A DNA stretch of 64,000 bases, from contig JAPLJZ010000245.1 in the NCBI GenBank assembly GCA_026388335.1, forward strand, positions 1 to 64,000. Reading direction: 5' to 3'. This stretch comes from Deltaproteobacteria bacterium (GTDB lineage Bacteria; Desulfobacterota; Syntrophia; Syntrophales; UBA8958). The position numbers and the translations under genes were made by a program. Every line of letters begins with the position of its first letter. The stretch's first letter is position 1. Positions 12,176 through 58,023 of the stretch are shown piece after piece. The notes under the pieces are model-generated. The model worked only from the letters and a program-made list of their open reading frames with translations, did not search any database and had not been told where the DNA came from.

Positions 12176-13192
12176 TCATAATTTTATTTTAACCGCATTC
12201 AAGAACATAAAGAGCCAAGATTTCAAGTTAAACAGATCACACGTCAAGGAAGTGAAAAAATATTGGCGAGCCGCCCTATGGTTACCTGATCGCATAAAGG
12301 CCCGACCTCCGCCACGAACAATGTCAGCACGACGTTTACGTATGAGATATTTATATAGAGGCGTCTTCGGCTGCCACTCTTGAAAATGGGCATTCACTAC
12401 GTTAAGGTTATGTTGGCAATGTTCAGCTATTTTGGCGGTAATTCCCTGACCGAATACACGATAAACACCAAGAACAACATTTATATATGCAAAGCTGCAA
12501 TTGATTTTTGCCAGACGTAGCCAAAAATCATAGTCTTCAACGCCGTTAAAGGACAAATCTTCAGAAAACCCCCCTACTATCAAAGCTTTGTCTTTTTTTA
12601 CTACGGTAGCTGAAGTCGAAATTGAGTTCCCTTTATATAAAAGATCTCGATATGATTTATAAGGGCCACAATAATTACGTCTTATTTTCCGACCATTTTC
12701 TTCTATCCATTCATCATGGCATATAAGATCCAGGTTAGGTGATTTTTTTAAATGCTGCAAAACATTTTCAAGTTTCGGCTCCAACCACACATCATCGGCA
12801 TCCAGGAAGGCAATGTAACTGCCTGAAGACGAATTGATACCCGTATTTCTCGCTCCTCCTATGCCTTTATTTTCCTGACGAACGATTTTCACATGAATGG
12901 CCGGATGTGCATTTGCCCAACCCTTGACCCTGTCATATGTACCATCCGTTGATCCATCATCTACAACAACGATCTCATAATCCGATACGGATTGCTGATC
13001 AATTGAATTCAATGCATCTTCAATAAATAACTCGGCATTATATGCGGGAACCACAACGCTGATAAAGGGTACAGGTGGCAACAATCTATATCCTAATCTG
13101 TTGTTATCACTTTGACATAATAAGATTTTGAATTTGTGCCGCAATCCTTGTACTTGATTGTCCATCGGTTCTGTAAAAACACATTCTTTCAA
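12176..13192 (-). CDS. family 2 glycosyltransferase
   Basis: PFISVVVPAYNAELFIEDALNSI..VVDDGSTDGT..FLDADDVW. ORF-track start overlaps the upstream gene by 86 nt, so the true start is probably internal. Confidence 0.88.
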   Translation of the reverse strand: MKECVFTEPMDNQVQGLRHKFKILLCQSDNNRLGYRLLPPVPFISVVVPAYNAELFIEDALNSIDQQSVSDYEIVVVDDGSTDGTYDRVKGWANAHPAIHVKIVRQENKGIGGARNTGINSSSGSYIAFLDADDVWLEPKLENVLQHLKKSPNLDLICHDEWIEENGRKIRRNYCGPYKSYRDLLYKGNSISTSATVVKKDKALIVGGFSEDLSFNGVEDYDFWLRLAKINCSFAYINVVLGVYRVFGQGITAKIAEHCQHNLNVVNAHFQEWQPKTPLYKYLIRKRRADIVRGGGRAFMRSGNHRAARQYFFTSLTCDLFNLKSWLFMFLNAVKIKL

Positions 13193-14990
13193 CCATGGTT
13201 TTGGCTTCGAGACTAGGGCTGAATACCTGCGGATTCCTGGTAAAGGTCTTCAGAGATATCGCCAAATCGCTTACTGAAGTAAATGAAGGTATTGCAATCT
13301 CGATATCACGGAAGCTTGATCCGTTAAAGGCTGCCGATCGCCACTGCCACACGGGGATTCCTTTCAAGAAGGCCTCTTCGGCTACAGTGGAGAACGTAAA
13401 CAAAATCAAGGCCGCATCTTCCAGGTCCTCTTCGAGCGTTCCTGTCGTACTTTGAATCTGCTTCCTGAATTTATGGAAATCCGGATGTTCTTCCATTTTT
13501 GCCAAGGGATGGCTTCTGAGATGGAGTTCTACATCGGGAATTCTCTTTGCTGCGATGGTAACGGCTTCAACCATATCCATTTCCAAATCCCGGTCTGTGG
13601 TTGCAACCATTAATAGTTTTGATTTCCGGGTTCTTGCTTTTTTACCATGAGATTTTTCATCTTGGAGGTGCTCATATCTCGAAGAGCCTGTTAGTAAAAC
13701 CTTCTCAGCGGGAAAACCACATTCCTCGAATATAGTTCTGCCTAATTCCCCCATGGCAAAGACATAATCAGGTTTTGGCAAAGGGCAATCATCGGGACGT
13801 CCCCGGAACTCCAATTCCGGATCCAGTCGAAGATAGGTCTTCTCACGGCTGTAACTTGCATGTTGCATGGAAACCAATACCGTGTCCGGGGAACCTTGCC
13901 GGGCGCCAATGTAAAAAGCCCTTGAATACGGAAACAGCTCTAAAAATGTAAGGGCTATTTTGGGCTTGTAACGGGCAAAAGCACGTCCGCAGGCCATAGC
14001 CACAAGACAGCAATTAGGCAGTGAAGAGTTCAAGAAGTTGCAAGCAAGGTTTCTTTTGAATAACGGGAACAGATCAAAACGATTCTCGAAAAATATTTTC
14101 CTAAATTCAGATTTCCGAGAAAAAGTTAGATATGTGACTGCTGGATGAAAATTCCAGAATGTGCCGAAATCACGGATCGTCAGATACTTCTGGAGGAAAA
14201 GGAGTTCATTATACGGACGTGCCGTCAGCAGGACATCCTTTACTCGGCGGTTTTTCATTCCCGGCTCATAGTCTGGTGAGAACCAGAGAAACCACGCCTT
14301 CTTCAACCCCCTTTCTTCAAGGATCCCGGGGAGTGATTTAAAATACCTGTCGTCTAAGGTTCCATTTCCATCTCTTATGCTCCAATCCCAGAAACCTTCG
14401 AGAACGAGTTCCACGTCACATTCCGTATCGGCTATCAAGGATTTGACCATGTACCAGTAGTAGAGCTGGGTGATGAAGGTTCTCGTCCTGGAAAGGATTG
14501 CTCTGAGAGAGGCATAGAAAAGAGAAACCCTTGCCGTATGGTGATGTTCTGTAGGGTATTTGCTGCTTATAACTTCAACAATCATAGAGTCTGCATGCCA
14601 CAAGATCAATTTGTCAGCAGACATTTCTGACGCGACTTTGTCAATGGAAAGAATTTTTATCAGGTGATTAAAGGTCGGGTCAGCTTCACAATCCTTTACA
14701 GAATCAAGGTGATACCACCACTTGCTAAAGCCGTTTTTGTATTTAAGTGATTCGCGTAGACTTTTTCCTTTGCGAACTCTTTCAGCCCCGATACGGGCCA
14801 CCACCCGCGTGTATATTTTCAGGGCATCGTTCTTTACATCTTGGGCAATCCTTCTCCCGGAAATAACATGATCGGTTCCGTATTCTTGGATACATTCTTC
14901 TTCCCGTGATGGAGAGAGAAAGCTGAGAATCTTAATCTTTTCCGGCAACTTAGATGGCATCGCCCAACATACACAGAGTGCATTTTTCAT
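13107..14990 (-). CDS. surface-carbohydrate biosynthesis GT-B-like transferase (resembles the O_ant_LIC13510 type)
   Basis: 627 aa; KLLMVATTDRDLEMDM..ELHLRSHPLAKMEEHPDF, ALILFTFSTVAEEAFLKGIPVW. Family name from memory. Confidence 0.6.
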   Translation of the reverse strand: MKNALCVCWAMPSKLPEKIKILSFLSPSREEECIQEYGTDHVISGRRIAQDVKNDALKIYTRVVARIGAERVRKGKSLRESLKYKNGFSKWWYHLDSVKDCEADPTFNHLIKILSIDKVASEMSADKLILWHADSMIVEVISSKYPTEHHHTARVSLFYASLRAILSRTRTFITQLYYWYMVKSLIADTECDVELVLEGFWDWSIRDGNGTLDDRYFKSLPGILEERGLKKAWFLWFSPDYEPGMKNRRVKDVLLTARPYNELLFLQKYLTIRDFGTFWNFHPAVTYLTFSRKSEFRKIFFENRFDLFPLFKRNLACNFLNSSLPNCCLVAMACGRAFARYKPKIALTFLELFPYSRAFYIGARQGSPDTVLVSMQHASYSREKTYLRLDPELEFRGRPDDCPLPKPDYVFAMGELGRTIFEECGFPAEKVLLTGSSRYEHLQDEKSHGKKARTRKSKLLMVATTDRDLEMDMVEAVTIAAKRIPDVELHLRSHPLAKMEEHPDFHKFRKQIQSTTGTLEEDLEDAALILFTFSTVAEEAFLKGIPVWQWRSAAFNGSSFRDIEIAIPSFTSVSDLAISLKTFTRNPQVFSPSLEAKTMVERMCFYRTDGQSSTRIAAQIQNLIMSK

Positions 14991-27308: not shown

Positions 27309-28124
27309 TCATGCTTCATTGAGTTCCACGTGTGATGGGGGGGCCGGATAAAAAAGATCTACCGGCAGATGCAGTTCTCCACCCGTGTCAATCCTGTAGT
27401 CCTTCTCTGTGCCTTTTCTGACGGCAAGCGCTGCAAAAACAAGACGGTCATCTCTCGTTCTCGCCGTGGGAGAAGGAGGCCCCCAATATCCGTAAGCTTT
27501 GATATGTGCCGGTCTGGGTTTGAGGTCCATCAGCAATGAGAAAGCTTCCTGATAATTGATGACTACGTATGGAGCCTTTTCGATCCCTTCTTTATTTTCC
27601 GGCAAATCATTTCCATAATAAATGTATTGATAACTCTCAGGCAAATTGAACAGCGAGTCATTTTTCGTCAGCCGCAGGGTAAGGATAAAATGTCCCCCCT
27701 TACGAACATACCGCCAACACTTCTTTATAATATCGTGTGTTTCAACGTTCCAGTCCGCACAACTAAGAGAGACAACATGATCAAATCCCTCCTGCGGTAG
27801 ATTATCAATATCCAGGATATCTCCACAGGTGAATTCGCAATAGGCAGCCGCTGCTTTCAATTTTCTCGCCCTGGCAATTTCGATCACCTCGGCATTGATA
27901 TCGACACCTGTATATTGATCCACGGAAAAGCGCTCCATCAAAGCCAATCCGAGACCGCCGGCTGCACATCCGACATCTAGCACCTTTCCCATGCTAAGTT
28001 CCGGTCCGGCCACCTGCTCGAAGATCCATTTCTCCGAAGGATAAAAATCATCCCATTTTTGACGGTTATTGCCGAAATATTCTGAAAGCTGAACCGTCTG
28101 GTAATGGATGTTCTTAGCGCTCAT
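27309..28124 (-). CDS. class I SAM-dependent methyltransferase
   Basis: GKVLDVGCAAGGLGLAL, YTGVDINAEVIEIA; overlaps the APS-kinase-like gene by 11 nt. Confidence 0.85.
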   Translation of the reverse strand: MSAKNIHYQTVQLSEYFGNNRQKWDDFYPSEKWIFEQVAGPELSMGKVLDVGCAAGGLGLALMERFSVDQYTGVDINAEVIEIARARKLKAAAAYCEFTCGDILDIDNLPQEGFDHVVSLSCADWNVETHDIIKKCWRYVRKGGHFILTLRLTKNDSLFNLPESYQYIYYGNDLPENKEGIEKAPYVVINYQEAFSLLMDLKPRPAHIKAYGYWGPPSPTARTRDDRLVFAALAVRKGTEKDYRIDTGGELHLPVDLFYPAPPSHVELNEA

Positions 28125-28671
28125 TATGCTTTCCGACTCTCTCCTCTTCCTTCCGGTGGATGAATTCTATCAATCTTCCCACACATGATTCTATGCCTGC
28201 GCCTTCCGTGTCGAGCACCAGATCGGCGTCTTTAGGAGGCTGAAAGGGAACCTCTTTATGAATGCCTATAAAATTATCGATTTCTCCCGACAGAGCTTTC
28301 CTATATAGCCCCTTGGGGTCTCTCCGTATAACCTCCTCAAGGGATATCTTGCAGTAAACAAGATAAAAATGATCTCCAAGCAGTCTTCTGGCCTCGTCCC
28401 TCGATTCCCGGAAGGGGGCAATCACAGGGACAAAGATATAATCATAAAGATGACTCTCTTTCAGGCAAAGATCTGCTATAATCCGGTTATTCTCGCTAAT
28501 GTCCTTCGGCCTGAAGGTCAGGTGAGAGTTGATTTCTTTTCTGACGACATCGCCATCGAATATCTTGATTTTGATATCCCGATTTGAGAGACGCTGAATG
28601 GTTCCATCTACAATGGTGGTTTTACCCGAACCGGAGAGACCAGTGAACCAGAAGATTAAGGCGTTTTTCAT
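28114..28671 (-). CDS. adenylylsulfate kinase-like protein (CysC family)
   Basis: FWFTGLSGSGKTTIVD (P-loop), IFDGDVVRKEINSHLTF, DPKGLYRKALSGEIDNFIGI. Confidence 0.82.
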   Translation of the reverse strand: MKNALIFWFTGLSGSGKTTIVDGTIQRLSNRDIKIKIFDGDVVRKEINSHLTFRPKDISENNRIIADLCLKESHLYDYIFVPVIAPFRESRDEARRLLGDHFYLVYCKISLEEVIRRDPKGLYRKALSGEIDNFIGIHKEVPFQPPKDADLVLDTEGAGIESCVGRLIEFIHRKEEERVGKHNER

Positions 28672-28678
28672 AACCGGT

Positions 28679-30850
28679 TTAAATAAAAATTTCCTCTCCC
28701 CGTCCGATTGCGTTCAGGATGAGTTGGGAGATATCCTTTCTCATAAACCACTCCGGCGGAAGAATTCCGGATTCTATCATGGCCCGTCCTTCCGTACCGC
28801 TGATGCTGAGAAGATCCAAATCGCCGTGCTTGCATGTCTCCACGTATTGTCCGCACTTCCGGCAGTAATTCACATTGTTAAAAAATACGGGCGTGATACC
28901 GATATCCCCAAGTTCCCTGAAAAGCCTGTGAGCATCATCGGGACCATAATATTGGCCGACGCCCGTATGGTCACGCCCGACAATAAAATGACTGCATCCG
29001 AAATTTTTTCGGCACAAAGCCGTAAATACGGCCTCTCTCGGACCTGCATACCGTGAATAATTCTGGAAGGACGATAAAAGGACCTTGTCCGAAGGGTAAT
29101 GCTTTTTTAACATCAATTCATAACTCTTCAGGATGATGCCCGGGTTATAATCCCCTTTCTTTTTGGGGCCAATAACGGGATGGATAAATATACCGTCGCA
29201 ATAATGTTTTTCCATTGCCGCCATCTGGATATGCTCATGCACCCTGTGGATCACGTTTCTTGTGTGGAAGGCGACCACCCGGCTCCAACCTTTGTTTTCA
29301 AAGATCAGTCGCACCTGCTTGGGAGTCATCTCATAATTCTTGTATTCGGAAGGGAGTCGTCTGATCACTTCGATCTTTCCGCCAACAAAATATTCGCCGC
29401 CACTCATTAACATCCGGGCGCCGGGATGGCCATCGTCCGCCGTCCCGTAAGTCTCACGTGACATTTGATACAGATCATAGGGATAGATCTCTTCCACGTG
29501 TAAAACAGCGTAAGGCTCAGAGGTTTCTTCAAGAACCAGGCATACCAGGTCCCCAGTCTTGATTCCGGAAACCGCATCCCGGCCAACCTGTAGCAGGATG
29601 GGGATAGGCCACACGATGCCATTCGGAAGCCGGTAATCCTTCAAGACCGATTCCAGTTCTTCCTTGTTCATAAAACCTTCCAGAGGTGAAAATGTTCCGA
29701 TGCCAATCTGCTCGGCATTTAATAGTACCGTCGCATCAACTCTGAGGATTTTTAAGCCTTTTATCTCCCTTAAATCATAATGATCCTGCATCCTGCTTAC
29801 AAGGGTGCCACCATGGGGCTGTGAAAGCAAAAACGATTCCTTCTCACCTGTTTCGTGCTGACCGTGAAGAAAGCTAGTATACTGATTGATCATCTTGGAA
29901 ACCATGACAACGCAGTTGACCGGATAAGCGCCTATTGCCGTTTCCGCCGCAAGCACCAGCCCATCGGCGCCGTCGATAAGAGTATTTATCACATCGCTCG
30001 CCTCCGCCCTAGTCGGAATTTTAACTTTGACCATCGACTCCAACAGATTTGTCGCTACATATACAGGCACCTTCTTACTGTTCGCGCTTCGAATGATATA
30101 TTTCTGCAAAAAAGGGATTTTCTCCGCCGGAACCTCTCTGGAGAGATCGCCCCGGTCAATGAGAATGGCATCGGAGACATCGAGAATCGCACCAAGATGA
30201 TCGATCCCTCTTCTGCTCTCGATTTTTGAGATGATATGCGCACCTTCGCCCGCAAGTTTCCGAAACGCCTTTACATCTTCGCGGCTGCCGGCGAAGGACA
30301 GAGCAAAATTTGTGAGCCCTTGTTTACGGCCGACAGAAAGTGCCGAAATGTCTTTGTCGGTCATGACCGGCAAATCGAGCAATCTGTCAATGGTCACGGC
30401 CTTGTTGCTGCCAACGAACCCTCCGGAAACAACCTTCGCCGTCACCGAACTCCGATCGGAGACCATAACCTGAAGGAGTACTGACTCGAAATCGAGGCTG
30501 ATCAAGTCCCCGGGTCTTATCTGCGGGAAAACGGATTCTGGTTTCAGGGGGATTATATGGGCATTACCCGTTAACTGTTCAGTTACCAATTTTACTGTGC
30601 TGTTGTTCTCCATGAAGGTCTTGCCGTTTTCCATCAGGCCCGTCCGAACCTGAGCGCCTTCTGTATCCAGACAGATCGGTTTGGAGGTATATTGCCTGAT
30701 ATACATTATGATCCCCTCAAGTTCGTCCAAATCCGTATGGGAAAGATTGATGCGGAAAAGGTCAACCCCCAACTCGTCCATCATAACAATCGCCTTTTCA
30801 TTCAAGGACGAAGGCCCGAGTGTGCATAGTATCTTTATTTTTTTATCCAT
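28679..30850 (-). CDS. fusion of an N-terminal pyruvate kinase-like domain (about aa 1-330) and a C-terminal ATP sulfurylase-like domain (about aa 345-723)
   Basis: PK: ILCTLGPSS, LFRINLSH, CLDTEGAQVRTG, HIISKIESRRG, DRGDLSREV, VATNLLESMV, PTRAEASDV. ATPS: VAFHTRNVIHRVHE, VGRDHTGVGQYYGPDDA, YCRKCGQYVETCKHG, SISGTEGRAMIESG. One uninterrupted 723-aa ORF. Confidence 0.9.
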   Translation of the reverse strand: MDKKIKILCTLGPSSLNEKAIVMMDELGVDLFRINLSHTDLDELEGIIMYIRQYTSKPICLDTEGAQVRTGLMENGKTFMENNSTVKLVTEQLTGNAHIIPLKPESVFPQIRPGDLISLDFESVLLQVMVSDRSSVTAKVVSGGFVGSNKAVTIDRLLDLPVMTDKDISALSVGRKQGLTNFALSFAGSREDVKAFRKLAGEGAHIISKIESRRGIDHLGAILDVSDAILIDRGDLSREVPAEKIPFLQKYIIRSANSKKVPVYVATNLLESMVKVKIPTRAEASDVINTLIDGADGLVLAAETAIGAYPVNCVVMVSKMINQYTSFLHGQHETGEKESFLLSQPHGGTLVSRMQDHYDLREIKGLKILRVDATVLLNAEQIGIGTFSPLEGFMNKEELESVLKDYRLPNGIVWPIPILLQVGRDAVSGIKTGDLVCLVLEETSEPYAVLHVEEIYPYDLYQMSRETYGTADDGHPGARMLMSGGEYFVGGKIEVIRRLPSEYKNYEMTPKQVRLIFENKGWSRVVAFHTRNVIHRVHEHIQMAAMEKHYCDGIFIHPVIGPKKKGDYNPGIILKSYELMLKKHYPSDKVLLSSFQNYSRYAGPREAVFTALCRKNFGCSHFIVGRDHTGVGQYYGPDDAHRLFRELGDIGITPVFFNNVNYCRKCGQYVETCKHGDLDLLSISGTEGRAMIESGILPPEWFMRKDISQLILNAIGRGEEIFI

Positions 30851-45414: not shown

Positions 45415-46059
45415 TCATTTGGAAAAAAGGCACAACATTCGATCCCGGCCGGCCAACGGTTCCACAAAAACATTGTATTGGAAGAAGGGCGATTTGCCGC
45501 TTATCCTTTTCATATCGTCAAAGGTAATCGGGCAGTAGAGGTAACTCACGTTTTCAACATAAATACACTTGCTATCATCGGGCTCTTGCTGAAAAGGACA
45601 TTCGATCAAAGCGCTTCCGCCTTTTTTCAAGATGCGGTGCATCTCCTGCAAAAATGTTACTTGCTCAGACTCTGTAATAAGAAAATTGAAGCTTGCCCAG
45701 ACACAGAAGCAGAAATCGAACACCGCTTCTTGGAAGGGAAGTTCTTTCATGTTGGCAACGAACAGTGAGCGTTGAGGAATGCCATATTCTTGAAAAAGGC
45801 TGATCCCTTTAAATATCAGTACATCGGAGATATCTATTCCTGTTACGTCATATCCGTCCTTCACCAGAGGGATGGTCAGGCGGCCGTAGCCGCAACAGAT
45901 ATCCAAGACCTTATCGCAGGGTTTGAGGTAGTCGCGGAGGACATTTAGCAGGGCATCCGTGTAAGCCGGGTCGGCCCTGTCCATGAGCCAGTCAGGACCA
46001 ACCGTCTCGTAGAGCTTGCGGGTCTTTAGGTCATTGTTATCAATAACATTTGTCATCAA
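45415..46059 (-). CDS. class I SAM-dependent methyltransferase
   Basis: KVLDICCGYGRLTIPLVKDGYDVTGIDISD. Confidence 0.87.
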   Translation of the reverse strand: MMTNVIDNNDLKTRKLYETVGPDWLMDRADPAYTDALLNVLRDYLKPCDKVLDICCGYGRLTIPLVKDGYDVTGIDISDVLIFKGISLFQEYGIPQRSLFVANMKELPFQEAVFDFCFCVWASFNFLITESEQVTFLQEMHRILKKGGSALIECPFQQEPDDSKCIYVENVSYLYCPITFDDMKRISGKSPFFQYNVFVEPLAGRDRMLCLFSK

Positions 46060-47828
46060 TTACTTTTTCGAAGAATCAAAAAATCGTCGAATATGAGACC
46101 GTCAAGATCCGAGTTTTCGAAGGTGTGGAGGGCATCTTCAGGGGAGCAGACCACAGGCTCGCCATGAAGATTGAAAGACGTGTTCAGAAGGGCTCCTATT
46201 CCCGTCAGGCGCTCGAATTCCTCGATCAGGTCAAAGTATGGCGGATTGGCCTCCCGCTCCAGAACCTGGGGCCGGACCGTAAAGTCTGCAGGATGTATTG
46301 CCGCGGCAAGGTCCTTGCGCGCCAGTTCCGTGGAGTCAAAGGCCATGGTCATGAAAGGTGATTTCAGGGGAGACACAAGGTAATCTCCCGCACGATGCTC
46401 CAGGATCGTTGGCGTGAAGGGCATCCAAAAATCCCGACGCTTAATCTGCCGGTTGATCTTCTGCACATTACCGAAATACGAGGGATTGGCAAGAATCGAC
46501 CGGTTGCCGAGCGCCCGCTGTCCGAACTCCATACGTCCTGTGCATCTGGCCAATATCAAATTATCCTTGAGGGCAACGGCGATATCATGAACAGCAGGCG
46601 TTTCGATAACTTTGTATTTTCTTGCGACATCGAAACCGGCCATGGCCATTTCCACATCCCCCTTTCCGAATGATAGGCCAAGATAGATGTTGTTTATCGG
46701 ATGGGGAGTAACGTCAGGATGAAATTTTCTTAAGAGGCGATAGCCCGCCCCGATCGCTAGCGAACCGTCACCGCTAATGGGATTGACATGGACGGATTCC
46801 ACTTCGGCCATGTCTTTGATGGCCTTCATGGCCTTGATATTTTGAGCAACGCCACCACTGAAAACAATATTACGAATGTTTGTCTTCTTAATATGGAACA
46901 GAACCCACTCTTTGAGACAACTTTCAAGATACTCCTGGAGGGCTGCGGCTATTCCGTCAAAGCGGTGGCCTTGGAAGGCCTGAATAAAGTGGAAATAGGA
47001 GTCCGGTATCTTGCGATTGACAACCAAGTTCCCTTCTTTGACCTGCAGCAGATCTTGAAAAACAGAAAGACTCCTGTTTTTTTCATAGGCGCTTGAATAG
47101 GGGGCGAGCCCCATGACCTTATACTCGTGCTGATTGGGCTTCATGCCAAGAAGCAGAGTGATATATCTATAAAAATGGGCGAGATGATTCTCCTTCGTGT
47201 TGCAAATTTCTCTTATGCCGTCAGCATCAGCAATACTGACCGTTGCATTCGAATAATCACCCTCTCCCTCGCAAGTAAAAACCAGTGCCTTGTCCCGGAT
47301 GGGAGCGCCATAATAACCGTAATGGGAATGGCATTCCTCATGGGGAATAAAATGAATCCTATCAAGTGAAATGTTCAGGTGCTGAGCTATTGCTTCGGCC
47401 CGGACCTTCCGGAATTCATCGTGGTCGACGTTTCCTTTTTCATCAAATACACGTGAAAAATCATAGTGTTGATCGTGGATGTACCGGGGATTATTGGAAA
47501 AGATTTCATGGTAAGAAACGGATTCACCCGCCAGCCTCCTCTTCCAGTACAGGTTCTGTTCATCGACCCAGTCCTGTATGGAAAAGCTCGCCTCCCTTTT
47601 GATCCGGATATGCGCTGCCGGTGAATACAGGGTGGCAAAAGCCACGGCATCGACTTCCGTTCCTTTCAGGCCGGCAAAAGCCAGACAAAATTCAACAGCC
47701 CGACGGGGATATCCCATATCACATTTAAACCGCGTCAGGCGTTCTTCAGCGCAGGCTGCTACCAATGTGCCGTCGACAAAAAGACAGGCTGCCGCCTCAT
47801 GAGGGTCACTGATTCCAAGAATGATCAT
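46056..47828 (-). CDS. NodU/CmcH-type carbamoyltransferase
   Basis: MIILGISDPHEAAACLFVDGTLVAACAEERLTRFK; CTGRMEFGQRALGNRSILANP; LLNTSFNLHGEPVVCSPEDAL. Confidence 0.92.
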   Translation of the reverse strand: MIILGISDPHEAAACLFVDGTLVAACAEERLTRFKCDMGYPRRAVEFCLAFAGLKGTEVDAVAFATLYSPAAHIRIKREASFSIQDWVDEQNLYWKRRLAGESVSYHEIFSNNPRYIHDQHYDFSRVFDEKGNVDHDEFRKVRAEAIAQHLNISLDRIHFIPHEECHSHYGYYGAPIRDKALVFTCEGEGDYSNATVSIADADGIREICNTKENHLAHFYRYITLLLGMKPNQHEYKVMGLAPYSSAYEKNRSLSVFQDLLQVKEGNLVVNRKIPDSYFHFIQAFQGHRFDGIAAALQEYLESCLKEWVLFHIKKTNIRNIVFSGGVAQNIKAMKAIKDMAEVESVHVNPISGDGSLAIGAGYRLLRKFHPDVTPHPINNIYLGLSFGKGDVEMAMAGFDVARKYKVIETPAVHDIAVALKDNLILARCTGRMEFGQRALGNRSILANPSYFGNVQKINRQIKRRDFWMPFTPTILEHRAGDYLVSPLKSPFMTMAFDSTELARKDLAAAIHPADFTVRPQVLEREANPPYFDLIEEFERLTGIGALLNTSFNLHGEPVVCSPEDALHTFENSDLDGLIFDDFLILRKSN

Positions 47829-47867
47829 AATCTTCTTCTGCCATTCATCTTCAAAACGTTCACCTTG

Positions 47868-48587
47868 CTATTCTTCCGTATATTGCTTGTATTCCATTTT
47901 CAACAGCTTTTCCTTAACCTTGGCGAGGGTATCATTATCCATAACGTTGTGGTAACTTCCCTTATCAGATGCAGCGGAAGTTCCCTTAAGCCCACTTTCC
48001 AAAAGCTTGATACCCTTAACCAGCACACCAGCACCGTGGCTGAACATTCTGGCACGCACGGATTCGTAAGAATCACCCCGTTTGATCGGTAATACTTCAC
48101 TGTATAGAATAGGCCCGCCATCGATCTCAGGCGTTACGAAATGACATGTAGTTCCCACAAAGTCGTCATGATAAAGCGCCCACTCCACTGCCGAACAACC
48201 CCTGTATTGAGGCAGCAGACCGGGATGGATGTTAAGGGTGCCAATAACCGGTATTGATAGGATTTGCGGCATTATGATGTCTGCCCCCCCTAAAACCAAC
48301 AGATCAGGTTTCAGACGCAGTATAATCGCTTCTGAAGTTAAAGAGTTATGGCTGGACACGAAATAAAAAGGCAGCAAATGAGGTACCGTTACTTCAGTGA
48401 TAGGAGGTATACGGTAGTGTCCGATGGTCCGCTCCCGAAATATTTCCTGCTCCTTTCGGTAAATCTCCGGATCATGGGAACAGATGACCGCTTTTAGATC
48501 CATTCCCTGAGAAAGAAGGGCGCGAATCATCTCAAGGCCCCAAGGGTTTTCAAATGTTGTCATGATAACAATTTTCATGGATTTCAC
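47868..48587 (-). CDS. formyltransferase-family protein (sugar N-formyltransferase-like)
   Basis: GTLNIHPGLLPQYRGCSAVEWALYHDDFVGTTCHFVTPEIDGGPIL (N, H, D catalytic pattern). Confidence 0.85.
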   Translation of the reverse strand: MKSMKIVIMTTFENPWGLEMIRALLSQGMDLKAVICSHDPEIYRKEQEIFRERTIGHYRIPPITEVTVPHLLPFYFVSSHNSLTSEAIILRLKPDLLVLGGADIIMPQILSIPVIGTLNIHPGLLPQYRGCSAVEWALYHDDFVGTTCHFVTPEIDGGPILYSEVLPIKRGDSYESVRARMFSHGAGVLVKGIKLLESGLKGTSAASDKGSYHNVMDNDTLAKVKEKLLKMEYKQYTEE

Positions 48588-48588
48588 T

Positions 48589-49698
48589 TTATTTCAGGTT
48601 GATAGTACTCAATATGAAATCGGATATATTATAAGCGGATAGCATCCGACGTTTTGTTGGCAGGTGAGGCGAATCGTTTTTTTTCATTTTTAAAGAGTCT
48701 TCAATATCGGCTTGATTCCGCAGATGTTTCACCCAGCCTAGCCTCACCCCGATAAACGACTGCTCGTCATCTCCAGGGATGACTGAATATACAGGGAGAC
48801 CGAGGACGGCAGCCTCGAGAAGCAACAGAGAACTTATACCCAAGACGAGTTTCGCGCTGAGCATCAGGTCAAACCGGTCAATTTCATCTTTAACGGAGAC
48901 AATCTTTAATGCCCTGTATGCCCTCAACATCGGGGCATACTTGGACGAATCTTCCCGGGGATGCAACTTGATGACCAGCGGCGGGCGTATTTCCTTTCCC
49001 AGTTGCAGCAGAGTACTGCAGATCCGCTCAAGGATCGAAAACTCGGAGTAACCCAGGTCCTTGCTACCATGATCGGACTCCACAGGCTCGGATACGAAGA
49101 GCACATAATCTCGGTCATCCTTCAGTGCCAACTGCTGTAGGATTTGGCTGCGTTTCTTTTCCGAAAAATATTGCGCCGCCTTGCCTGCAACATCTAAGGC
49201 TGGATGCCCGGAAACAACAATTTGCCGCCCGGGGATACCCATATCCAACAGGTCCCGCTGGGCAATTTCATCAGGGACAAAGATAGTATCGGGCACCGCG
49301 TTCAGATACCCAGAGGAGTCCTGGAACCGGACGCGGTATTCGCACCAGTGATCCAGCACAGAGAAGGAGGGAACGCCCTGTTCTCTGGCCTTTCTTACGA
49401 AGGACCTTTCCAGGTTCCCGCTGATGCTGGTCCCTGCAAGCACAAAGGCATATTGGCGCAGATCGAGCTTATCGTAATCCTCCGGCGAGACCTCTTCGTC
49501 GACAATTGTTTTCCGGGCTGACCGCGCCGCTAGGTTAAAAAACGGAAAGGAATTGTGGGTAAGAACAAGATCGAAGAATATTTCCGGGGTTTTTTCAATA
49601 AATGTTTTAGTAACGGGCAGCACTACGCGAGCTCCGCCAGGATGGTTGCAAACGGCCAAAGCCTTGAGTTTCTTTCCTTCTCTGCGTAAACTATGCAT
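48589..49698 (-). CDS. GT-B-fold glycosyltransferase/surface polysaccharide transferase-like protein
   Basis: VPSFSVLDHW, VVSGHPALD, PPLVIKLHPRED, AKLVLGISSLLLLEAAVLGLPVYSV. Confidence 0.6.
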   Translation of the reverse strand: MHSLRREGKKLKALAVCNHPGGARVVLPVTKTFIEKTPEIFFDLVLTHNSFPFFNLAARSARKTIVDEEVSPEDYDKLDLRQYAFVLAGTSISGNLERSFVRKAREQGVPSFSVLDHWCEYRVRFQDSSGYLNAVPDTIFVPDEIAQRDLLDMGIPGRQIVVSGHPALDVAGKAAQYFSEKKRSQILQQLALKDDRDYVLFVSEPVESDHGSKDLGYSEFSILERICSTLLQLGKEIRPPLVIKLHPREDSSKYAPMLRAYRALKIVSVKDEIDRFDLMLSAKLVLGISSLLLLEAAVLGLPVYSVIPGDDEQSFIGVRLGWVKHLRNQADIEDSLKMKKNDSPHLPTKRRMLSAYNISDFILSTINLK

Positions 49699-50971
49699 TC
49701 ACGCCCTTTTTCCGGAGGGCATATTCCTCGATTTTACGAAACATGACCCCGATCCGGTCCATGTGCTGTTCCTCCAGTTCATAGGAACAGATTTCAAAGG
49801 TCAGGCACCTGGATTCATAAAAAGCTTCCGCTTGCGGGCAGCTCCCTCTCCGGTAATTTTCGCTGTTCTGATTCGAAAGGGACTGGGTAAAGGGAAATCC
49901 CTGCTCTCCGTAAACGATCTTTTTCCGGTAGATGTCCTGCCAGTACAGCGGACGATAGCTCTCGGTGATCGGCAGGTTTTCCGCCTGCGTCATGCGAAGC
50001 ATATCTCCTTTTGTTATGCCTATCCATCCTAAATCCATCTGCATGGGGAAATCGTAATAAGAATGTTCACAACCCTCTTCAACGAGAGGAGCCCTGACCC
50101 AGTCAAAGGCTTCCAGTATATGGGAAAGGCGGTTTGCAAGTCTTCTCCTCTTTTCTACAAGCCCCGGAAGTTTCTTTGTCTGTTCAAGAGCAATAGCCGC
50201 TTGGAGTTCCGTGAGCCGAAAGTTCCATCCCACGATATTGGATAGATTCCCTCTTGTCCCCTTCACCTCACCATGATTGCGGATCAGAGCCAGTCTCTCA
50301 CGTAACTCCGCATCACGTGTGACGGCCACACCTCCCTCACCACAATTGGCATGTTTGTGGAAGTTGAAGCTGAAGACACCGATATCACCGAATGATCCTG
50401 TAAAAGATCCGCGATACATGGCGAAAGGACTCTGGGCGCAATCCTCGATGACACGGAGGCGGCGTTCCCTGGCGATAGCCATCAGTTCATCCATGCGGGC
50501 CGGGTGGCCGTAAAGATGGACAATCATGAGAGCCTTCGTTTTTGCCGATATCCGGGAGCGGACGGACTCGGGATCCAGCCCGTAGGTCCGTTCTTCAACG
50601 TCGGCAAAAACGGGAACAGCGTTATAAGCCAGTACCGCAGCAGCGCTGGCGGACATGGTTTGCGCAGGTACAATCACTTCGTCCCCCAGACCGAGATTCA
50701 GGGCGCCCACCGCTGCAACGAGACCCGACGTTGCCGAATTAAAAGAAACGGCACACGGCATCCCGAGCGATCCGGCGAAGAGAGATTCGAATCCCCGGAC
50801 AACTGGTCCTCCGTAAAAGCGGTCATCTCCGCAGGCGACGAAACCGGATAGGCTCCCCGATTCCATCACCCGGAGCGCAGCATCCTTTTCCTCCTGCCCA
50901 ATGGAAACGTAGGGCCTGAGCGGCTGTGGCTGAACCGGTCTTCCTCCGAACAGTGCTAACGGTTCCGGCAT
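49691..50971 (-). CDS. DegT/DnrJ/EryC1/StrS aminotransferase
   Basis: FNSATSGLVAAVGAL, VIEDCAQSPFAMYRG, GVFSFNFHKHANCGEGGVAV (PLP Lys). Confidence 0.88.
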   Translation of the reverse strand: MPEPLALFGGRPVQPQPLRPYVSIGQEEKDAALRVMESGSLSGFVACGDDRFYGGPVVRGFESLFAGSLGMPCAVSFNSATSGLVAAVGALNLGLGDEVIVPAQTMSASAAAVLAYNAVPVFADVEERTYGLDPESVRSRISAKTKALMIVHLYGHPARMDELMAIARERRLRVIEDCAQSPFAMYRGSFTGSFGDIGVFSFNFHKHANCGEGGVAVTRDAELRERLALIRNHGEVKGTRGNLSNIVGWNFRLTELQAAIALEQTKKLPGLVEKRRRLANRLSHILEAFDWVRAPLVEEGCEHSYYDFPMQMDLGWIGITKGDMLRMTQAENLPITESYRPLYWQDIYRKKIVYGEQGFPFTQSLSNQNSENYRRGSCPQAEAFYESRCLTFEICSYELEEQHMDRIGVMFRKIEEYALRKKGVNA

Positions 50972-51939
50972 TCCAGTTCCCTTATTAATTTAAGATAATT
51001 AAGAGTCCGGCAGGCATCTTCGGCTGTGCAACGGAAAAGACCGGGATAGTTTCCCAAGATGCCCTTAATGATATCATTGATGACCAAAGCCATATTTTCA
51101 TACTGGTGGCTGGGGATGGCTTCCGGCTCGGGAGAAAGATACCGATACCCGTCCAGAAATGGATGACTCACGGCCTTTGAAAGCAAGATGCGATTGGTCA
51201 GGTCCGTAATGATGATTTTACCTCCCTCCAAGAACATTGTGTATTCGAAGATGCTGTAACAGCATTCACGCAATCCTTGAAATACAACCTGAAATCCGGG
51301 ATAGAGGAATACAAAATTGCACGTGGGATCATCGGGAACCTCGGTAAATTCAGATAGTTTAAGGATATCCATTGGCTCTCCGAACAACTGTAGAGTCAGG
51401 TCAACAATGTGAATGCCATTATGCAGGAGCCCTTTGGCATAAACGGCGCTCACGGTCTGAACCGGCCCGAGGGTTCCCTGTTCGAGTTTATTCCAGATTT
51501 TCTGAATTCCAGGTTCCCAGCGAAGCACATGATTTATGAGGAGCGTTTTCCCGGAACGCCTGTAAAGATCGGAGATCTCAACCGCTCTACCCAGGTCCTC
51601 GACGAACGGTTTTTCGCAGAGCACGTATGGAATGTTCGTGTCGAGAGCACGGAGCAGATCCTTTTCATGAACCGGCGTGGGCGTACAAATGGAGAAGATG
51701 TCCGGGCGGTGACGAGCCAGGAGATCATCGCTACTTTCGAAACATTCGATCCCTGATCCCCATTTGAGGGTAAATTGCTCAAGCTTGGATGGATCCTTGT
51801 CACATACGGCAATAAGGTCGATGTGCGGGTTTAGCAGATACGCCTTCGCATGTGAATAAATATATCGGTCTTCGAGGCTGTTATCGTAGCTGCTTCCGAT
51901 CTTCCCACAGCCGATGATAGCAGCTTTAAGTCGTTTCAC
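50956..51939 (-). CDS. Gfo/Idh/MocA-family oxidoreductase
   Basis: AAIIGCGKIGSSYDNS, PYVLCEKPFVEDL, GIHIVDLTLQLFG. Confidence 0.87.
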   Translation of the reverse strand: MKRLKAAIIGCGKIGSSYDNSLEDRYIYSHAKAYLLNPHIDLIAVCDKDPSKLEQFTLKWGSGIECFESSDDLLARHRPDIFSICTPTPVHEKDLLRALDTNIPYVLCEKPFVEDLGRAVEISDLYRRSGKTLLINHVLRWEPGIQKIWNKLEQGTLGPVQTVSAVYAKGLLHNGIHIVDLTLQLFGEPMDILKLSEFTEVPDDPTCNFVFLYPGFQVVFQGLRECCYSIFEYTMFLEGGKIIITDLTNRILLSKAVSHPFLDGYRYLSPEPEAIPSHQYENMALVINDIIKGILGNYPGLFRCTAEDACRTLNYLKLIRELECRNR

Positions 51940-52685
51940 GGCCTCTTGCTCTTGCGTTTAATTTGTTCGTTAATGCTGGCGATATCGGGGGATTCAAGAA
52001 GATAATGGATCACATCACCTGTAGAAAAATCAGGATTTCTCGGATAGAGATGTTCGAAGACATTCCTGATTACTGCGTAATCCTCCGGTGTGTCCAGGGT
52101 GACTTGCATCTCCGGATAGCTGAGGTCAGGTGGCGCGCTGACATTGTACAGCCGAAACCTTTCTGGGCGCTCCACAAGATAGGTCGTCACGTGCTCCCGG
52201 TCCACTTCATCGAGGTCCGGCTCATCAAGGGTCGATGCCAGCAGGTTAACGGACATGACGGCAACATCGAATCCGATTGGGTAGGTCCTGACCAGGTCGT
52301 TGGCGATGTAGTCCCACTTATCTTCGAGATATTTCTGTACACATGCGTCGATGAGCCGATGGTCCATGAGGGGACAATCCCCCGTCAACTGCACAAGGAT
52401 GTCTGCCCTGCGGGAACGCGCCGTATCAACGACGCGAGAGAGGACATCGTCTTCACTGCCCCGATAATGGGGCACTCCGATTTTCTCAGCCAAATCAATT
52501 ATGGGGTCATCCCCAGAACCATCAGGAAGAGCGATTACGACTTCATCGAGATATCTGGATCTCTGTACCCGCTCGATCATATGCTGAAGCAGCGGCTTAT
52601 CGAGAACCGGTAGGAGAACTTTTCCCGGAAGCCTACTGCTGGCCATGCGCGCCTCAATGGTGGCGATAATTTTCCTGCGGTTCAT
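51936..52685 (-). CDS. SpsF-like cytidylyltransferase
   Basis: IIATIEARMASSRLPGKVLLPVLDKPLLQHMIERV, ILVQLTGDCPLMDHRLID. Confidence 0.87.
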   Translation of the reverse strand: MNRRKIIATIEARMASSRLPGKVLLPVLDKPLLQHMIERVQRSRYLDEVVIALPDGSGDDPIIDLAEKIGVPHYRGSEDDVLSRVVDTARSRRADILVQLTGDCPLMDHRLIDACVQKYLEDKWDYIANDLVRTYPIGFDVAVMSVNLLASTLDEPDLDEVDREHVTTYLVERPERFRLYNVSAPPDLSYPEMQVTLDTPEDYAVIRNVFEHLYPRNPDFSTGDVIHYLLESPDIASINEQIKRKSKRP

Positions 52686-54384
52686 AATCCACCAGATTCA
52701 GATCATCTTTTTTAACAATATAATTTTCCAGAACAAGGACATCAAGATTGGTCCCCAGGAAACAGCGGATGGCATCTTCTGCTGAGCATACAATCGGCTC
52801 GCCCTTGATATTGAAGGACGTATTGAGGATGACCGGCACGGACGTCAATTTGTCGAACTCTTTGATGATCTCGTAAAGCATCGGGTTAACATCCCGAAGG
52901 ACGGTCTGGACACGTCCCGTCTGATCCTCATGGACAATCGACGGTATCACCTTCTTCTTGTCTGGCTTAACCTTATAGACGAGAAGCATGTAGGGAGAGG
53001 GATAGTCGTTTTCGAAATATTCCTTACAGCGCTCAGCATGTACAGACGGAGCAAAGGGCCGGAAAGGCTCCCTGAACTTTACCCGGTTATTGACAATGTC
53101 CTTCATATCCGGATAACGGGGATCCGCCAGGATGCTTCGATTTCCCAGTGCTCGCGGTCCGAATTCCATTCTCCCCTGGAAAAGGCCAATGACTTTCTTC
53201 TGGGTTAGCAATGAGGCAATATCGGCTGAGGCATTTGCGGATTTCTTTACCGGAAGTTTGTATTTTTCCAATGCGGCGGTGATTTCATCTTCAGAAGCGG
53301 CAGGACCGAGATAAGTATCAGAGGCCACATAACGGCGGGGTTTCCCCATTATGACGTTGTAGTAATAAAAGGCGCTTCCAATAGGCAGGCCGTTATCTCC
53401 ACTGGCGGGCTGAATGAATATGTCCTTGAAATACCCCTGATCGAGAATCATTCCGTTGGTCACGCAATTGAGGGCCACCCCACCGGCAACACAGATGGCG
53501 GTCTGTTTCGTTTTTTTATGAAGGTGCTCCGTAATGTGCAGGATAGTTTCTTCCAGAACGCGCTGGGCTGCCGCCGTCACTGCACGATGTCGATCGTTGA
53601 TTTCCTCCCCTGGTTGGCGTTTCGGACCGAAAATTCTATAGAATTTATCGCTTAGCCAAGCATCCCGTTTTAGGTGATACATAAAGTAACTAAGATCAAG
53701 ATCGTAAGTCCCGTCACGTTTCAGAGTGACGATTTTTTTAAATTCCTTGTAATAGGCGTCGGGATCACCGTATGCGGATAATCCCATTGTTTTCCCTTCG
53801 TCCATCTCGGGAATGTAACCCAAAAAATACGTGATGCAGGCATACATGGTGCCCAGTGAGTGGGGAAAGTTGACGTGCTGTAGCCTCTTAACCTTATTGC
53901 CATATCCATCGGAGAGGCTGCACGATTCATATTCACCGAGGCCGTCCACAGTCAGGATGGCAGCCCTATCAAAGGGGGAAACAAGATAAGTGCTACCAAT
54001 ATGGGCATCGTGATGTTTGATGAATGCGACAGGTATATCACAATTTATGGCTTTTCTAATATTACGTTTCAAGGGAATGAATTTTCTGAATTGCCTTCCG
54101 GCATATCTGAGTTCACCAAGTGCAAAGGGGAAATACCTCAGTTGGTGATAAAGAAAACGGTGCGTAAGCCAAAGGTGCGGCTTATAAGCGTAAGTAAGGC
54201 AATCGATATCTTCCAAAGAAATACCACCCTGGTCCAGACAAAACTTTATGGATTGGTACGGAAAAACCCGTGTATGCTTCTCACGGTTGAGCCTCTCTTC
54301 TTCGACGGCAGCGACGAGTTGACCATCAATAAGGAGTGCGGCTGAGGTATCATGTCCAAATGCGTTGATCCCTAATATTTTCAT
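52654..54384 (-). CDS. NodU-type carbamoyltransferase
   Basis: MKILGINAFGHDTSAALLIDGQLVAAVEEERLNREKH; GRMEFGPRALGNRSILADPR; ILNTSFNIKGEPIVCSAEDAI. Confidence 0.93.
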   Translation of the reverse strand: MKILGINAFGHDTSAALLIDGQLVAAVEEERLNREKHTRVFPYQSIKFCLDQGGISLEDIDCLTYAYKPHLWLTHRFLYHQLRYFPFALGELRYAGRQFRKFIPLKRNIRKAINCDIPVAFIKHHDAHIGSTYLVSPFDRAAILTVDGLGEYESCSLSDGYGNKVKRLQHVNFPHSLGTMYACITYFLGYIPEMDEGKTMGLSAYGDPDAYYKEFKKIVTLKRDGTYDLDLSYFMYHLKRDAWLSDKFYRIFGPKRQPGEEINDRHRAVTAAAQRVLEETILHITEHLHKKTKQTAICVAGGVALNCVTNGMILDQGYFKDIFIQPASGDNGLPIGSAFYYYNVIMGKPRRYVASDTYLGPAASEDEITAALEKYKLPVKKSANASADIASLLTQKKVIGLFQGRMEFGPRALGNRSILADPRYPDMKDIVNNRVKFREPFRPFAPSVHAERCKEYFENDYPSPYMLLVYKVKPDKKKVIPSIVHEDQTGRVQTVLRDVNPMLYEIIKEFDKLTSVPVILNTSFNIKGEPIVCSAEDAIRCFLGTNLDVLVLENYIVKKDDLNLVDYEPQENYRHH

Positions 54385-54445
54385 TTTGTTCTAAACCCCG
54401 GATGGATTCTTAATATTAAACTCGGTAATATGAGTGATGCCTTTA

Positions 54446-56197
54446 CTAAATCTTCCACAATGTTTTTATCCATGAATACCACCAGAACCTTTCGGATCTC
54501 GCGTATTCATGGCACCATGCCGCTCTTGCCTCCTGGATATCGCGGCCTTTCCACCAGTCCTCCACATGGTCCCATATCTGGTTGACTTTCAGCGCCGCCG
54601 TTTCTGCATCCGGCAGGATGACGCCGGCCTGCTCCAGGGCTTCAAAATAGGGACGTGCACCGTCGGCTATCGCCCAATCATTTTTGTTCCAGTAGCAAAT
54701 TGTTGGGATGTTGGATGCGAGACTGATATGGAGCGTGGTCTGAGGGTTGTCCAGCACCAGCAACTTGCATTTTATCATCTCAGGGTGAGGCGCAGGCATG
54801 CCCTCAAGAAATTTCAATGTAGAAAAAAAACTGCGTAAATATGTCTTTTCTTCAAGGTAGATCGGATAATTCGAGGGCATCGTACGATAATAAGTTTTCG
54901 CGAAGATATCAGGAGATAACAGTTGTAAAAATTTTCTCTTTTCTTTTCTGTAAAGTAACAATCTTTTACCCTTGGGCAATATATCGAATCGAAGCTCGAA
55001 AGGGCTCAGTGATACGCCTACAAAAATCAGTTTGCCCGTTTTTCTGTATGAATTCCTTTTCTTTTCAAGTCTGGATAAAAAAGGGGAAGGCAAGGCATAA
55101 GCATTGACAGGGAAAGAACCGTGTTGCTGCCAACCCCAAGAGAAAAAATATTCATGGGCATAATCTATGTCAGGAATAATATTTGGTATTTTCGCTATTC
55201 CATATATTCCACCATGTTGGGTGCAAACTATTTTTTCACCCATCTCCTTTGCGTTTGCAAACAAAAATTTCGCTCTTTCGTTATACCAATTTACAGGCCC
55301 GATCAGCCGTAAACGATTTTTCACATATTTGTGTTTTTTCGCATGCAAGTAATGCGAATCAAAACCATCGCAGAACATTTTTGGAAGAACATTTTCTATT
55401 TGATTATCAATGACCTTCAAATAGAGAGCCGGGAAATAACTGGCATAATTCTTCTTTTCCAATGATACCAATACCGCCGTTGGCGGTCTTTCATTTTTTT
55501 CTCTTATGGGTTTAAGTTCGAGATAAAGAGAAAAAAGGAGCTGCTGGATACGTGATAGTCCGTAAACATCCACACATCTTCTTGAATAAGAAAAGTTGGA
55601 TATCTTGTGCTTCAAGTATTCAAAACTGGCAAGTGTTTCCCCCCCTGACGGCATCGAATGGCCGTTTGAATCATTAGTATACATGGGTATCATTAGCCAG
55701 TTTTTTGGATTTATCTCCTGAAGAAAAAGGGATAGAAGCCAGTGGTGAAAACGAATATCACGATAACCACGAGCTAAGAAATCCATAGTGTCTTCAAAAT
55801 CCCAGGGATTTTTATTAATTAGGATATCCACTTCAAATGCTTCTGATGGATGCTGTTCAATAAATTTTGTCAACTGCAGATACAGAAACCAAGACATGTT
55901 GATGAACAGGAGCATCCATGGTTTTATGAGAATTCCCCAAAATTCGACACTGAGATTTGTTGCATGATAGTTGTTCAGTTTCCGGGCAAACTGGGTGAGA
56001 TAATGATCACAAGCAAGGTCTCTGATCATGGTATAGCCTTTCATCTGCTCGCCGATATCCTTGAATACGTCGACGAAATCCAGATCTTCCCAGCCCGGAT
56101 AAAGGGATTCACGACCAATGAAAGAGCTTATAGAAAGGACCGCATCACGGTCCGGGGAGAAATCAGGAGGAACCTGATTAAAAATAAGTCTCCTCAT
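54446..56197 (-). CDS. LIC12162-family putative transferase
   Basis: 583 aa; KIVCTQHGGIYGI, HEYFFSWGWQQH, CKLLVLDNPQTTLHISLASNIPTICYWNKNDWAI; overall pattern of the Leptospira-type LIC12162 family. Confidence 0.72.
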   Translation of the reverse strand: MRRLIFNQVPPDFSPDRDAVLSISSFIGRESLYPGWEDLDFVDVFKDIGEQMKGYTMIRDLACDHYLTQFARKLNNYHATNLSVEFWGILIKPWMLLFINMSWFLYLQLTKFIEQHPSEAFEVDILINKNPWDFEDTMDFLARGYRDIRFHHWLLSLFLQEINPKNWLMIPMYTNDSNGHSMPSGGETLASFEYLKHKISNFSYSRRCVDVYGLSRIQQLLFSLYLELKPIREKNERPPTAVLVSLEKKNYASYFPALYLKVIDNQIENVLPKMFCDGFDSHYLHAKKHKYVKNRLRLIGPVNWYNERAKFLFANAKEMGEKIVCTQHGGIYGIAKIPNIIPDIDYAHEYFFSWGWQQHGSFPVNAYALPSPFLSRLEKKRNSYRKTGKLIFVGVSLSPFELRFDILPKGKRLLLYRKEKRKFLQLLSPDIFAKTYYRTMPSNYPIYLEEKTYLRSFFSTLKFLEGMPAPHPEMIKCKLLVLDNPQTTLHISLASNIPTICYWNKNDWAIADGARPYFEALEQAGVILPDAETAALKVNQIWDHVEDWWKGRDIQEARAAWCHEYARSERFWWYSWIKTLWKI

Positions 56198-58023
56198 TGA
56201 AGTTTAAGATGACTTGAGCGAGGCTCTTTTTTTGTAATAAGCTTCCCGTCAAGAAGCAGCGCATCAATATCAGTAATGTTGAAAACTCGGTAGGCATCAG
56301 TCGCAGTGCTAACGATGGGTTCGCCATGAAGGTTAAAGGAAGTATTGAGCACACCTCCAGCACCTGTTTTCTCGTGAAAGGCTTGGATAAGGCTGTGGTA
56401 TTCTGGATTTGCATCCCTGGAAAGGATTTGCGGTCTTAGCGTTTTATCCGCAGGATGAAGTGCCGCAGCAAGCATTTCCTGTCCCGCTTCAGTCGATTCG
56501 AAACCAACAGTCATGAAAGGAGAAGGAATAGCCTTCGGGTTGATTAGATATTTTGAGGCATGTTCGCTCATGATCGTCGGTGCAAAGGGCATCCAAAAAT
56601 CACGCTTTTTGATTTTATGATTAATGATTTCGACAATTGAACGATTTCGTGGATCGGCAATAATGGAACGATTACCAAGGGACCTGGCTCCAAATTCCAT
56701 GCGGCCACTACAACGGCCGATTACCCATCCATCTGACAGAAGATCCGCCAGAAAGTCGTCATGCGCTTCATAAACAAAGTAGCCATTCCTGCGAGCCGCC
56801 AGCAATGCTCCATCGACATCTGCCTGTTTTAAGGCTGGTCCCAAATAAGCGTGATCCAAAGGTTTCATGTCCCGCCTGCCAAGCACTTCGTCCATATAGG
56901 CGTAACACACACCCATGGCCAGCGATTCATCACCACCGGAAGGCGGCACAAACATATCATTCATATCGGCAAGATCTTTCAACATCATATTGACCTTGAT
57001 ATTCATGGCAATACCACCGGACAGGGCAAGTCTGCGGGAGCCGAACCTGTTCATTGCATTCAATGTATACTCCGTCATAATATCTTCGGTATATTTCTGC
57101 AGTCCTCCGGCAATCCCATCAAAACGAAACCCTTCCAATCGATCCTTGAACCAGAAATAATGGTCTTTCGGCCTTTCATAGAATTTGAAATCAATCCCGT
57201 CTACATACATATGCCGCTTGAAAACATTTAATGGGCCTGAATAAATCGGCTCCTTTGCATAGGGCGCAAGACCCATGACCTTGTATTCGTGAGAATTGGG
57301 CTCCATACCCAGTAGCAAAGTCATATAACGGTATAATCTTCCCAAGGTAAAATCATTTGCAGAAACTGCATGGACACGCTTCAATCCCCCCTGATTTACG
57401 GGCAAGGATAGAGTGCCGCTCAAATCGTCACCAAAGGCATCCACAGACATGACAAGCACATCCTCCCCCCGTAGCGGGCCTGCCCAGTATGCATAAGCAG
57501 CATGACATATGTGATGATCCAAGTGCTTGATTCGTTTATCGGAAATACATAGATGATCGCAAATGATCTTGTGAACGAACTTAGTGTATTCACCCTGACT
57601 TTCTCCGCTATAATAGTCCTGGCTCGATGCTTTCAAAAAGGATCCCCAGGCTTCTGCTCCTGGATATTGTGAAACATCGATTTTATCCTTGAATAATTCA
57701 TGTAAGCGGCAATCTCGATTTTCGTATAACTTGGGATACCAGAATTCTCTCATTAGACGGATGTGATCAGGAACGTGCCAACTACTATGAGTTCGCAGGA
57801 GATGCGTTGATACATTCAATTTGCTTCCAGCAATTAGAATTACATCCAGTTCCTGCCCATCGACATGCCCTTCCTTCAGCACATATTCAATTGCGTTAAG
57901 AGGATAGGCTTCATCGTGCTTCACTCTGCTGAATCGTTCTTCACTGACACAGGCCACTATCCGGTCATCGATGAATAATGCTGCGGTTGCCAATTGGCCC
58001 AATGATAATCCCAATAGTTTCAT
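56194..58023 (-). CDS. NodU/CmcH-type carbamoyltransferase
   Basis: MKLLGLSLGQLATAALFIDDRIVACVSEERFSRVKH; CSGRMEFGARSLGNRSIIADP; VLNTSFNLHGEPIVSTATDA. Confidence 0.92.
   Translation of the reverse strand: MKLLGLSLGQLATAALFIDDRIVACVSEERFSRVKHDEAYPLNAIEYVLKEGHVDGQELDVILIAGSKLNVSTHLLRTHSSWHVPDHIRLMREFWYPKLYENRDCRLHELFKDKIDVSQYPGAEAWGSFLKASSQDYYSGESQGEYTKFVHKIICDHLCISDKRIKHLDHHICHAAYAYWAGPLRGEDVLVMSVDAFGDDLSGTLSLPVNQGGLKRVHAVSANDFTLGRLYRYMTLLLGMEPNSHEYKVMGLAPYAKEPIYSGPLNVFKRHMYVDGIDFKFYERPKDHYFWFKDRLEGFRFDGIAGGLQKYTEDIMTEYTLNAMNRFGSRRLALSGGIAMNIKVNMMLKDLADMNDMFVPPSGGDESLAMGVCYAYMDEVLGRRDMKPLDHAYLGPALKQADVDGALLAARRNGYFVYEAHDDFLADLLSDGWVIGRCSGRMEFGARSLGNRSIIADPRNRSIVEIINHKIKKRDFWMPFAPTIMSEHASKYLINPKAIPSPFMTVGFESTEAGQEMLAAALHPADKTLRPQILSRDANPEYHSLIQAFHEKTGAGGVLNTSFNLHGEPIVSTATDAYRVFNITDIDALLLDGKLITKKEPRSSHLKLQ

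Follow-up and report, generated by a model that had tools for sequence, protein, structure and literature searches.

The window, that is, the whole 64,000-nucleotide stretch of DNA analysed here (positions 1–64,000 of contig JAPLJZ010000245.1, assembly GCA_026388335.1, Deltaproteobacteria bacterium, UBA8958), encodes a single protein in which a pyruvate kinase (PK)-like domain is joined to an ATP sulfurylase (ATPS) (Table 1). The initial annotation had described one uninterrupted ORF with a PK A/B-domain-like N-terminus, no PK C-domain and an ATPS domain behind it, and this description was borne out: the ORF lies on the minus strand (the plus strand of the same interval holds many stops), and both parts were recovered with Pfam, NCBIfam and AlphaFold2/Foldseek. 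The PF00224 barrel scored 231.9 bits against a gathering score of 30 bits (E 1.4e-68), the PUA_2 domain (E 2.4e-41) and the ATP-sulfurylase domain (E 3.8e-77) both exceeded their gathering cut-offs, and by Pfam the ATPS part is complete (aa 344–712). Among the NCBIfam models, the sopT cut-off (TIGR00339) was exceeded (361 versus 322.95 bits) and that of pyruv_kin (TIGR01064) was missed (282 versus 306 bits, aligning to model positions 1–346 of 476), as expected from the missing C-domain; since the equivalog test for a full-length PK was not passed, the domain is classed here as PK-like and not as a bona fide pyruvate kinase. An AlphaFold2 model based on a 46-sequence alignment, from which a row from a plasmid record was left out, had a mean pLDDT of 90.9 and a pTM of 0.81, and Foldseek matched it to the ATPS structure 8a8d (TMt 0.95) and to many PKs.

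Table 1. Positions of the fusion gene, its domains and the adjoining genes in the window
Feature	Position	Strand	Basis
PK-ATP sulfurylase fusion, 723 aa	28679..30850 (including stop codon)	-	single ORF; Pfam, NCBIfam, structure
Pyruvate-kinase A/B domain, aa 3-314	29909..30844	-	Pfam; residue comparison
PUA_2, N-terminal ATPS domain, aa 344-497	29360..29821	-	Pfam
ATP-sulfurylase catalytic domain, aa 505-712	28715..29338	-	Pfam
Codons of H529-T-R-N532 (altered QxRN motif)	29255..29266	-	alignment with relatives
APS-kinase-like (CysC) gene, 185 aa, 7 bp downstream of the fusion	28114..28671	-	Pfam, NCBIfam
SAM-dependent methyltransferase, overlapping the cysC end	27309..28124	-	ORF layout, Pfam

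The CysC-like protein encoded next to the fusion scored above the TIGR00455 cut-off (142.3 versus 138.7 bits) and is the only APS_kinase in its genome, while the methyltransferase gene, judging by the layout, probably belongs to the same transcription unit as cysC. The surroundings of the fusion, all on the same strand, form a surface-glycan cluster encoding two NeuB proteins, three cytidylyltransferases of the CMP-sugar type, three carbamoyltransferases (all within 12 kb, window positions 46056–58023), aminotransferases, glycosyltransferases and radical SAM enzymes. Two large proteins of the cluster had no Pfam match (13110–14990, 627 aa; 54449–56197, 583 aa) and are possibly unrecognised transferases.

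The draft genome (98.9% complete) holds no other members of the fusion and CysC families, and its canonical PK, encoded on another contig, is the copy predicted to serve glycolysis. The search of this genome for CysD/CysH-like proteins gave a single hint, a weak hit to PF01507 on a different contig (E 6.5e-11), and a role of the fusion in sulfur assimilation appears unlikely in this organism.

Spread of the family and its conserved residues

Relatives were sought by scanning the PK domain against 85,462 species genomes and selecting with two strict peptide patterns, which yielded 195 relatives, of which the best 80 were analysed. These best 80 of 195 came from Omnitrophota, Elusimicrobiota, Planctomycetota, Pseudomonadota, Myxococcota, Bdellovibrionota, Nitrospinota, Chloroflexota, Actinomycetota, Acidobacteriota, Verrucomicrobiota, candidate phyla and Thermoplasmatota; most had the PK-ATPS architecture, about a dozen were PK alone, and in one Omnitrophota genome (L089:1301-2944) the PK-like domain was joined directly to an APS-kinase domain in a protein of 548 aa. 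Full-length fusions were recovered from dozens of genomes spread over more than 10 phyla, among them a congener (55% identity) and two complete rhizobial plasmids, of Sinorhizobium chiapasense and Ensifer adhaerens (47% identity over 98% of the length). At one contig end (L017:2182-2598) a PK-family fragment with 63% identity ended after the PK domain and adjoined a CDP-glycerol glycerophosphotransferase-like gene.

Given that the window comes from a draft genome of 268 contigs, pyk and sat genes joined by misassembly could have produced such an ORF, and homologues occurring only as separate genes would have pointed the same way. The same architecture was, however, found in dozens of genomes, including plasmids with complete sequences, and the PK domains form a separate clade (support 100/100), so that we reject an assembly chimera on recurrence and phylogeny and regard its probability as negligible. 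The fusion is a member of a widespread and apparently undescribed protein family. The initial annotation had not recognised the architecture as a standard one, and searches of the open-access literature turned up no description of a PK-ATPS fusion.

In the PK tree, the family domains fell on one side of the 100/100 branch and seven canonical PKs on the other, which sets the clade apart from glycolytic PK with strong support. All of the PK motifs listed earlier (RIN.S, LDT...RTG, SKIE, RGDL, ATN) are present in the fusion, whose catalytic residues are K209, E211, R233-G234-D235 and T267, and the residues that serve phosphoryl transfer or bind PEP and metal (R32, N34, S36, D66, R73, K220, E222, R244, G245, D246 and T278 in E. 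coli numbering) are kept in 84–85 of 85 relatives. The family also carries hallmark changes that are absent from canonical PKs, among them G38T, P70A, E71Q, D127F, A243D, G248S, Q279N and S312A, with D127F replacing a residue of the B-domain clamp; since E71, D127, A243, Q279 and S312 lie near the substrates, the acceptor may be one other than ADP. Residues are numbered after E. coli PykF and CysC, and the PykF sequence agrees with a PDB alignment.

The ATPS domain retains HRVH (an HxxH motif) and GRDH, both of which are also kept in intact relatives, and its ATP-binding motifs are unchanged. Where Sat has QxRN the window protein reads HTRN, and HxRN was found in 62 of 69 fusions, and in nearly all of the intact ones, as against glutamine at that position in all seven canonical Sat proteins compared; the family further shows S or P for M599, before R-Y/F-x-G-P, and mostly GRDH(T/S) for canonical GRDHA. 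In yeast ATPS, sulfate would be bound through Gln195, Arg197 and Ala293, an assignment for which a literature search gave no confirmation. Taken with those in the PK domain, these family-wide changes make an altered chemistry possible.

In nine fusions (L054, L070, L097, L029, L031, L055, L041, L068 and L079) the ATPS motifs were eroded whereas the PK residues were intact. On the PK tree, the eroded fusions require at least six changes and the PK-only members three. This repeated decay or loss of the ATPS, set against constant PK residues, indicates that the PK domain is the constant core of the family and the ATPS its dispensable part, and since the PK persists beside a dead fused ATPS it cannot serve the fused ATPS only.

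Genomic links to PAPS synthesis and sulfation

A CysC gene was present within 1.5 kb at 42 of 82 family loci, and in 36 of the 39 genomes without an adjacent one an APS kinase was encoded elsewhere, which makes a PK domain standing in for APS kinase needless. The operon CysC proteins deviate at positions conserved in canonical CysC, with T160 replaced by I and R82 by I or V in many; in L013:14197-14775 and rhizobial relatives, the CysC beside the fusion has the P-loop LGPTSAGKTT instead of TGLSGSGKST.

Sulfotransferases, identified by Pfam scans and a home-made sulfotransferase HMM, were encoded within 2.5 kb at 31 of 82 family loci. In the genes directly flanking the family members, Sulfotransfer_3 and Sulfotransfer_1 were the most frequent Pfam families, both downstream (19 and 18 of 104, respectively) and upstream (9 and 6 of 84), and individual checks of neighbouring genes confirmed the assignment. 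In 19 of 27 genomes, most of which hold only a few such genes, a Sulfotransfer_3 gene lay no more than 20 kb from the fusion. No sulfotransferase was detected among the window genes scanned by Pfam or by the home-made HMM over the window, and the fusion's own genome encodes, on another contig (L100:997-3288, C164), one 763-aa protein that appears to combine TPR, sulfotransferase and glycosyltransferase parts and is a candidate PAPS user. PF13469 and PF00685 were not found in the genome of the congener (G004), nor were these two families and PF01747 in the genomes of two marine alphaproteobacteria with PK and CysC pairs (L093:9995-11567, L096:9995-11567); PF03567 had no match in any genome, controls included, and its result therefore says nothing on sulfotransferases. 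A functional coupling of the family to PAPS and sulfation is well supported.

The fused ATPS and separate ATP sulfurylases are also complementary in their distribution. Among 25 genomes whose fusion is intact, one had a second PF01747 protein, as against 9 of the 14 in which the PK stands alone or the ATPS domain has decayed (Fisher p 8e-5, kinship among genomes being ignored); the two Thauera exceptions have APS-kinase frames of CysNC size. Together, these patterns suggest that the fused ATPS domain does the work of an ordinary ATP sulfurylase, and that the PK acts alongside PAPS synthesis whatever the source of APS. Sulfate is the likeliest substrate, since genomes in which the fused ATPS is missing or decayed tend to have a separate canonical ATP sulfurylase, and since sulfotransferase genes lie next to the family more often than those of any other kind.

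Proposed function and comparison with known systems

The reading we favour, with a probability of about 55%, is that the fusion is a dedicated, PEP-driven enzyme of PAPS synthesis that would serve sulfation and not sulfur assimilation; most likely, PAPS would be made with the help of PEP energy for decorating surface molecules. The ATPS domain would convert ATP and sulfate to APS and PPi, and the adjoining CysC-like kinase would phosphorylate APS to PAPS with release of ADP. The PK domain, which belongs to a specialised branch without the C-domain, is predicted to be active (PEP + ADP -> pyruvate + ATP) and would transfer the phosphoryl group of PEP to ADP and return ATP to the ATPS/CysC pair, putatively with channelling between the proteins. 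It would also keep APS kinase from being caught in a dead-end enzyme-ADP-APS complex by taking away the ADP. The net reaction would be ATP + sulfate + PEP -> PAPS + PPi + pyruvate. With human PAPSS1 in vitro, PAPS synthesis needs PEP and PK, as ADP and APS trap APS kinase (PMC9885120). Of the two possibilities raised by the initial annotation, a self-fuelling enzyme drawing on PEP fits the family evidence best (adjacent APS kinase, adjacent sulfotransferases, kept PK catalytic residues), and a PEP-dependent enzyme activating a new oxyanion, though conceivable, is not needed to account for it. The chief grounds for caution about the favoured reading are the changed residues at both active sites and the lack of a recognised sulfotransferase among the window genes scanned and in the congener.

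The main competing explanation, which we consider unlikely, is that the PK-like domain phosphorylates an acceptor other than ADP (e.g. APS, PAP or a small acid) from PEP or ATP, that the remodelled ATPS pocket activates this product or another oxyanion, and that the sulfotransferase-like enzymes transfer a different group. The strictly family-specific PK changes D127F, G38T, A243D, G248S, Q279N and S312A, the ATPS changes at QxRN, M599 and GRDHA, and the deviating operon CysC (e.g. at T160 and R82) would all be consistent with such an activity, although the neighbours are ordinary Sulfotransfer_1/3 genes, canonical ATP sulfurylases are present where the fused ATPS is missing or decayed, the ATP-binding motifs of the ATPS are unchanged, and the APS kinases encoded elsewhere leave no need for a PK that phosphorylates APS. 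Its fullest form, a new group-activation enzyme in which the PK site phosphorylates a non-ADP acceptor at the expense of PEP and the HxRN-type ATPS adenylylates some oxyanion that is not plain sulfate, so that sulfotransferase-fold enzymes receive a PAPS-like donor, seems to us distinctly unlikely.

A regulatory role of the PK domain, in which binding of PEP and nucleotide, with no turnover, gates sulfate activation by carbon or energy status, is also unlikely in our estimate. Fungal ATPS carries an APS-kinase-like domain with a regulatory and not a catalytic function (PMC2275785, PMC4220642), and residues on the nucleotide side of the PK are altered; against this, K220, E222, D246 and T278 are almost invariant and the PK also stands alone or fused to CysC. 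Sensor domains usually lose catalytic residues. That the domain merely scaffolds a complex or supplies pyruvate would suit operons sitting within glycan clusters, but the same conservation of catalytic residues, together with linkage to CysC and sulfotransferases and not to pyruvyl transferases, makes this very improbable; moreover, the cytosol is not short of pyruvate.

The energetics of sulfate activation are poor, and the known aids to it are GTP hydrolysis, pyrophosphatase and channelling. If the PEP-driven synthesis of PAPS holds, bacteria and some archaea would have a further natural solution, PEP input with a PK that removes the inhibitory ADP, and one that matches a solution which chemists built independently for PAPS. 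The family would then mark sulfated-glycan clusters across many uncultured lineages, explain why automatic annotation labels its members 'pyruvate kinase' or 'sulfate adenylyltransferase', and provide an enzyme ready for use in PAPS production, while the shared active-site changes allow a direct test of altered specificity.

Compared with PykF/PykA (PF00224), the fusion shares the A/B-domain fold, the PEP and metal residues (K, E, RGD, T) and the K+-site N, S and D, but differs in lacking the C-domain, in forming its own clade with substitutions on the nucleotide and proton-relay side, and in being a non-glycolytic copy linked to PAPS genes. With homodimeric Sat (TIGR00339; Methanothermococcus 8a8d, Thermus 1v47) it has in common the complete fold (the TMt of 0.95 above), HxxH, GRDH and a score above the TIGR00339 cut-off, whereas HxRN in place of QxRN, S/P in place of M before RYAGP, T/S after GRDH and the N-terminal PK domain set it apart. 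The known ATPS fusions, namely PAPS synthase (APSK-ATPS), the APSK-ATPS-pyrophosphatase of diatoms, haptophytes and oomycetes, and the dinoflagellate ATPS-APR (PMC4220642, PMC2275785; pyruvate kinase does not appear in the main text of either), likewise couple or pull the unfavourable ATPS step by fusion, but the partner here is a pyruvate kinase and PEP would be an extra energy source. In CysD-CysN(C), CysN adds GTP energy to sulfate activation (PMC4373884); a second energy source beside ATP would thus be common to both systems, although the ATPS types are unrelated and the fusion would use PEP and a PK domain instead. The proposed reactions are also those of the in vitro cascade of PAPSS1 with PK and PEP (PMC9885120), in which PK is needed to relieve the inhibition of APS kinase by ADP; that cascade was assembled from separate commercial enzymes, whereas the protein described here is a natural fusion.
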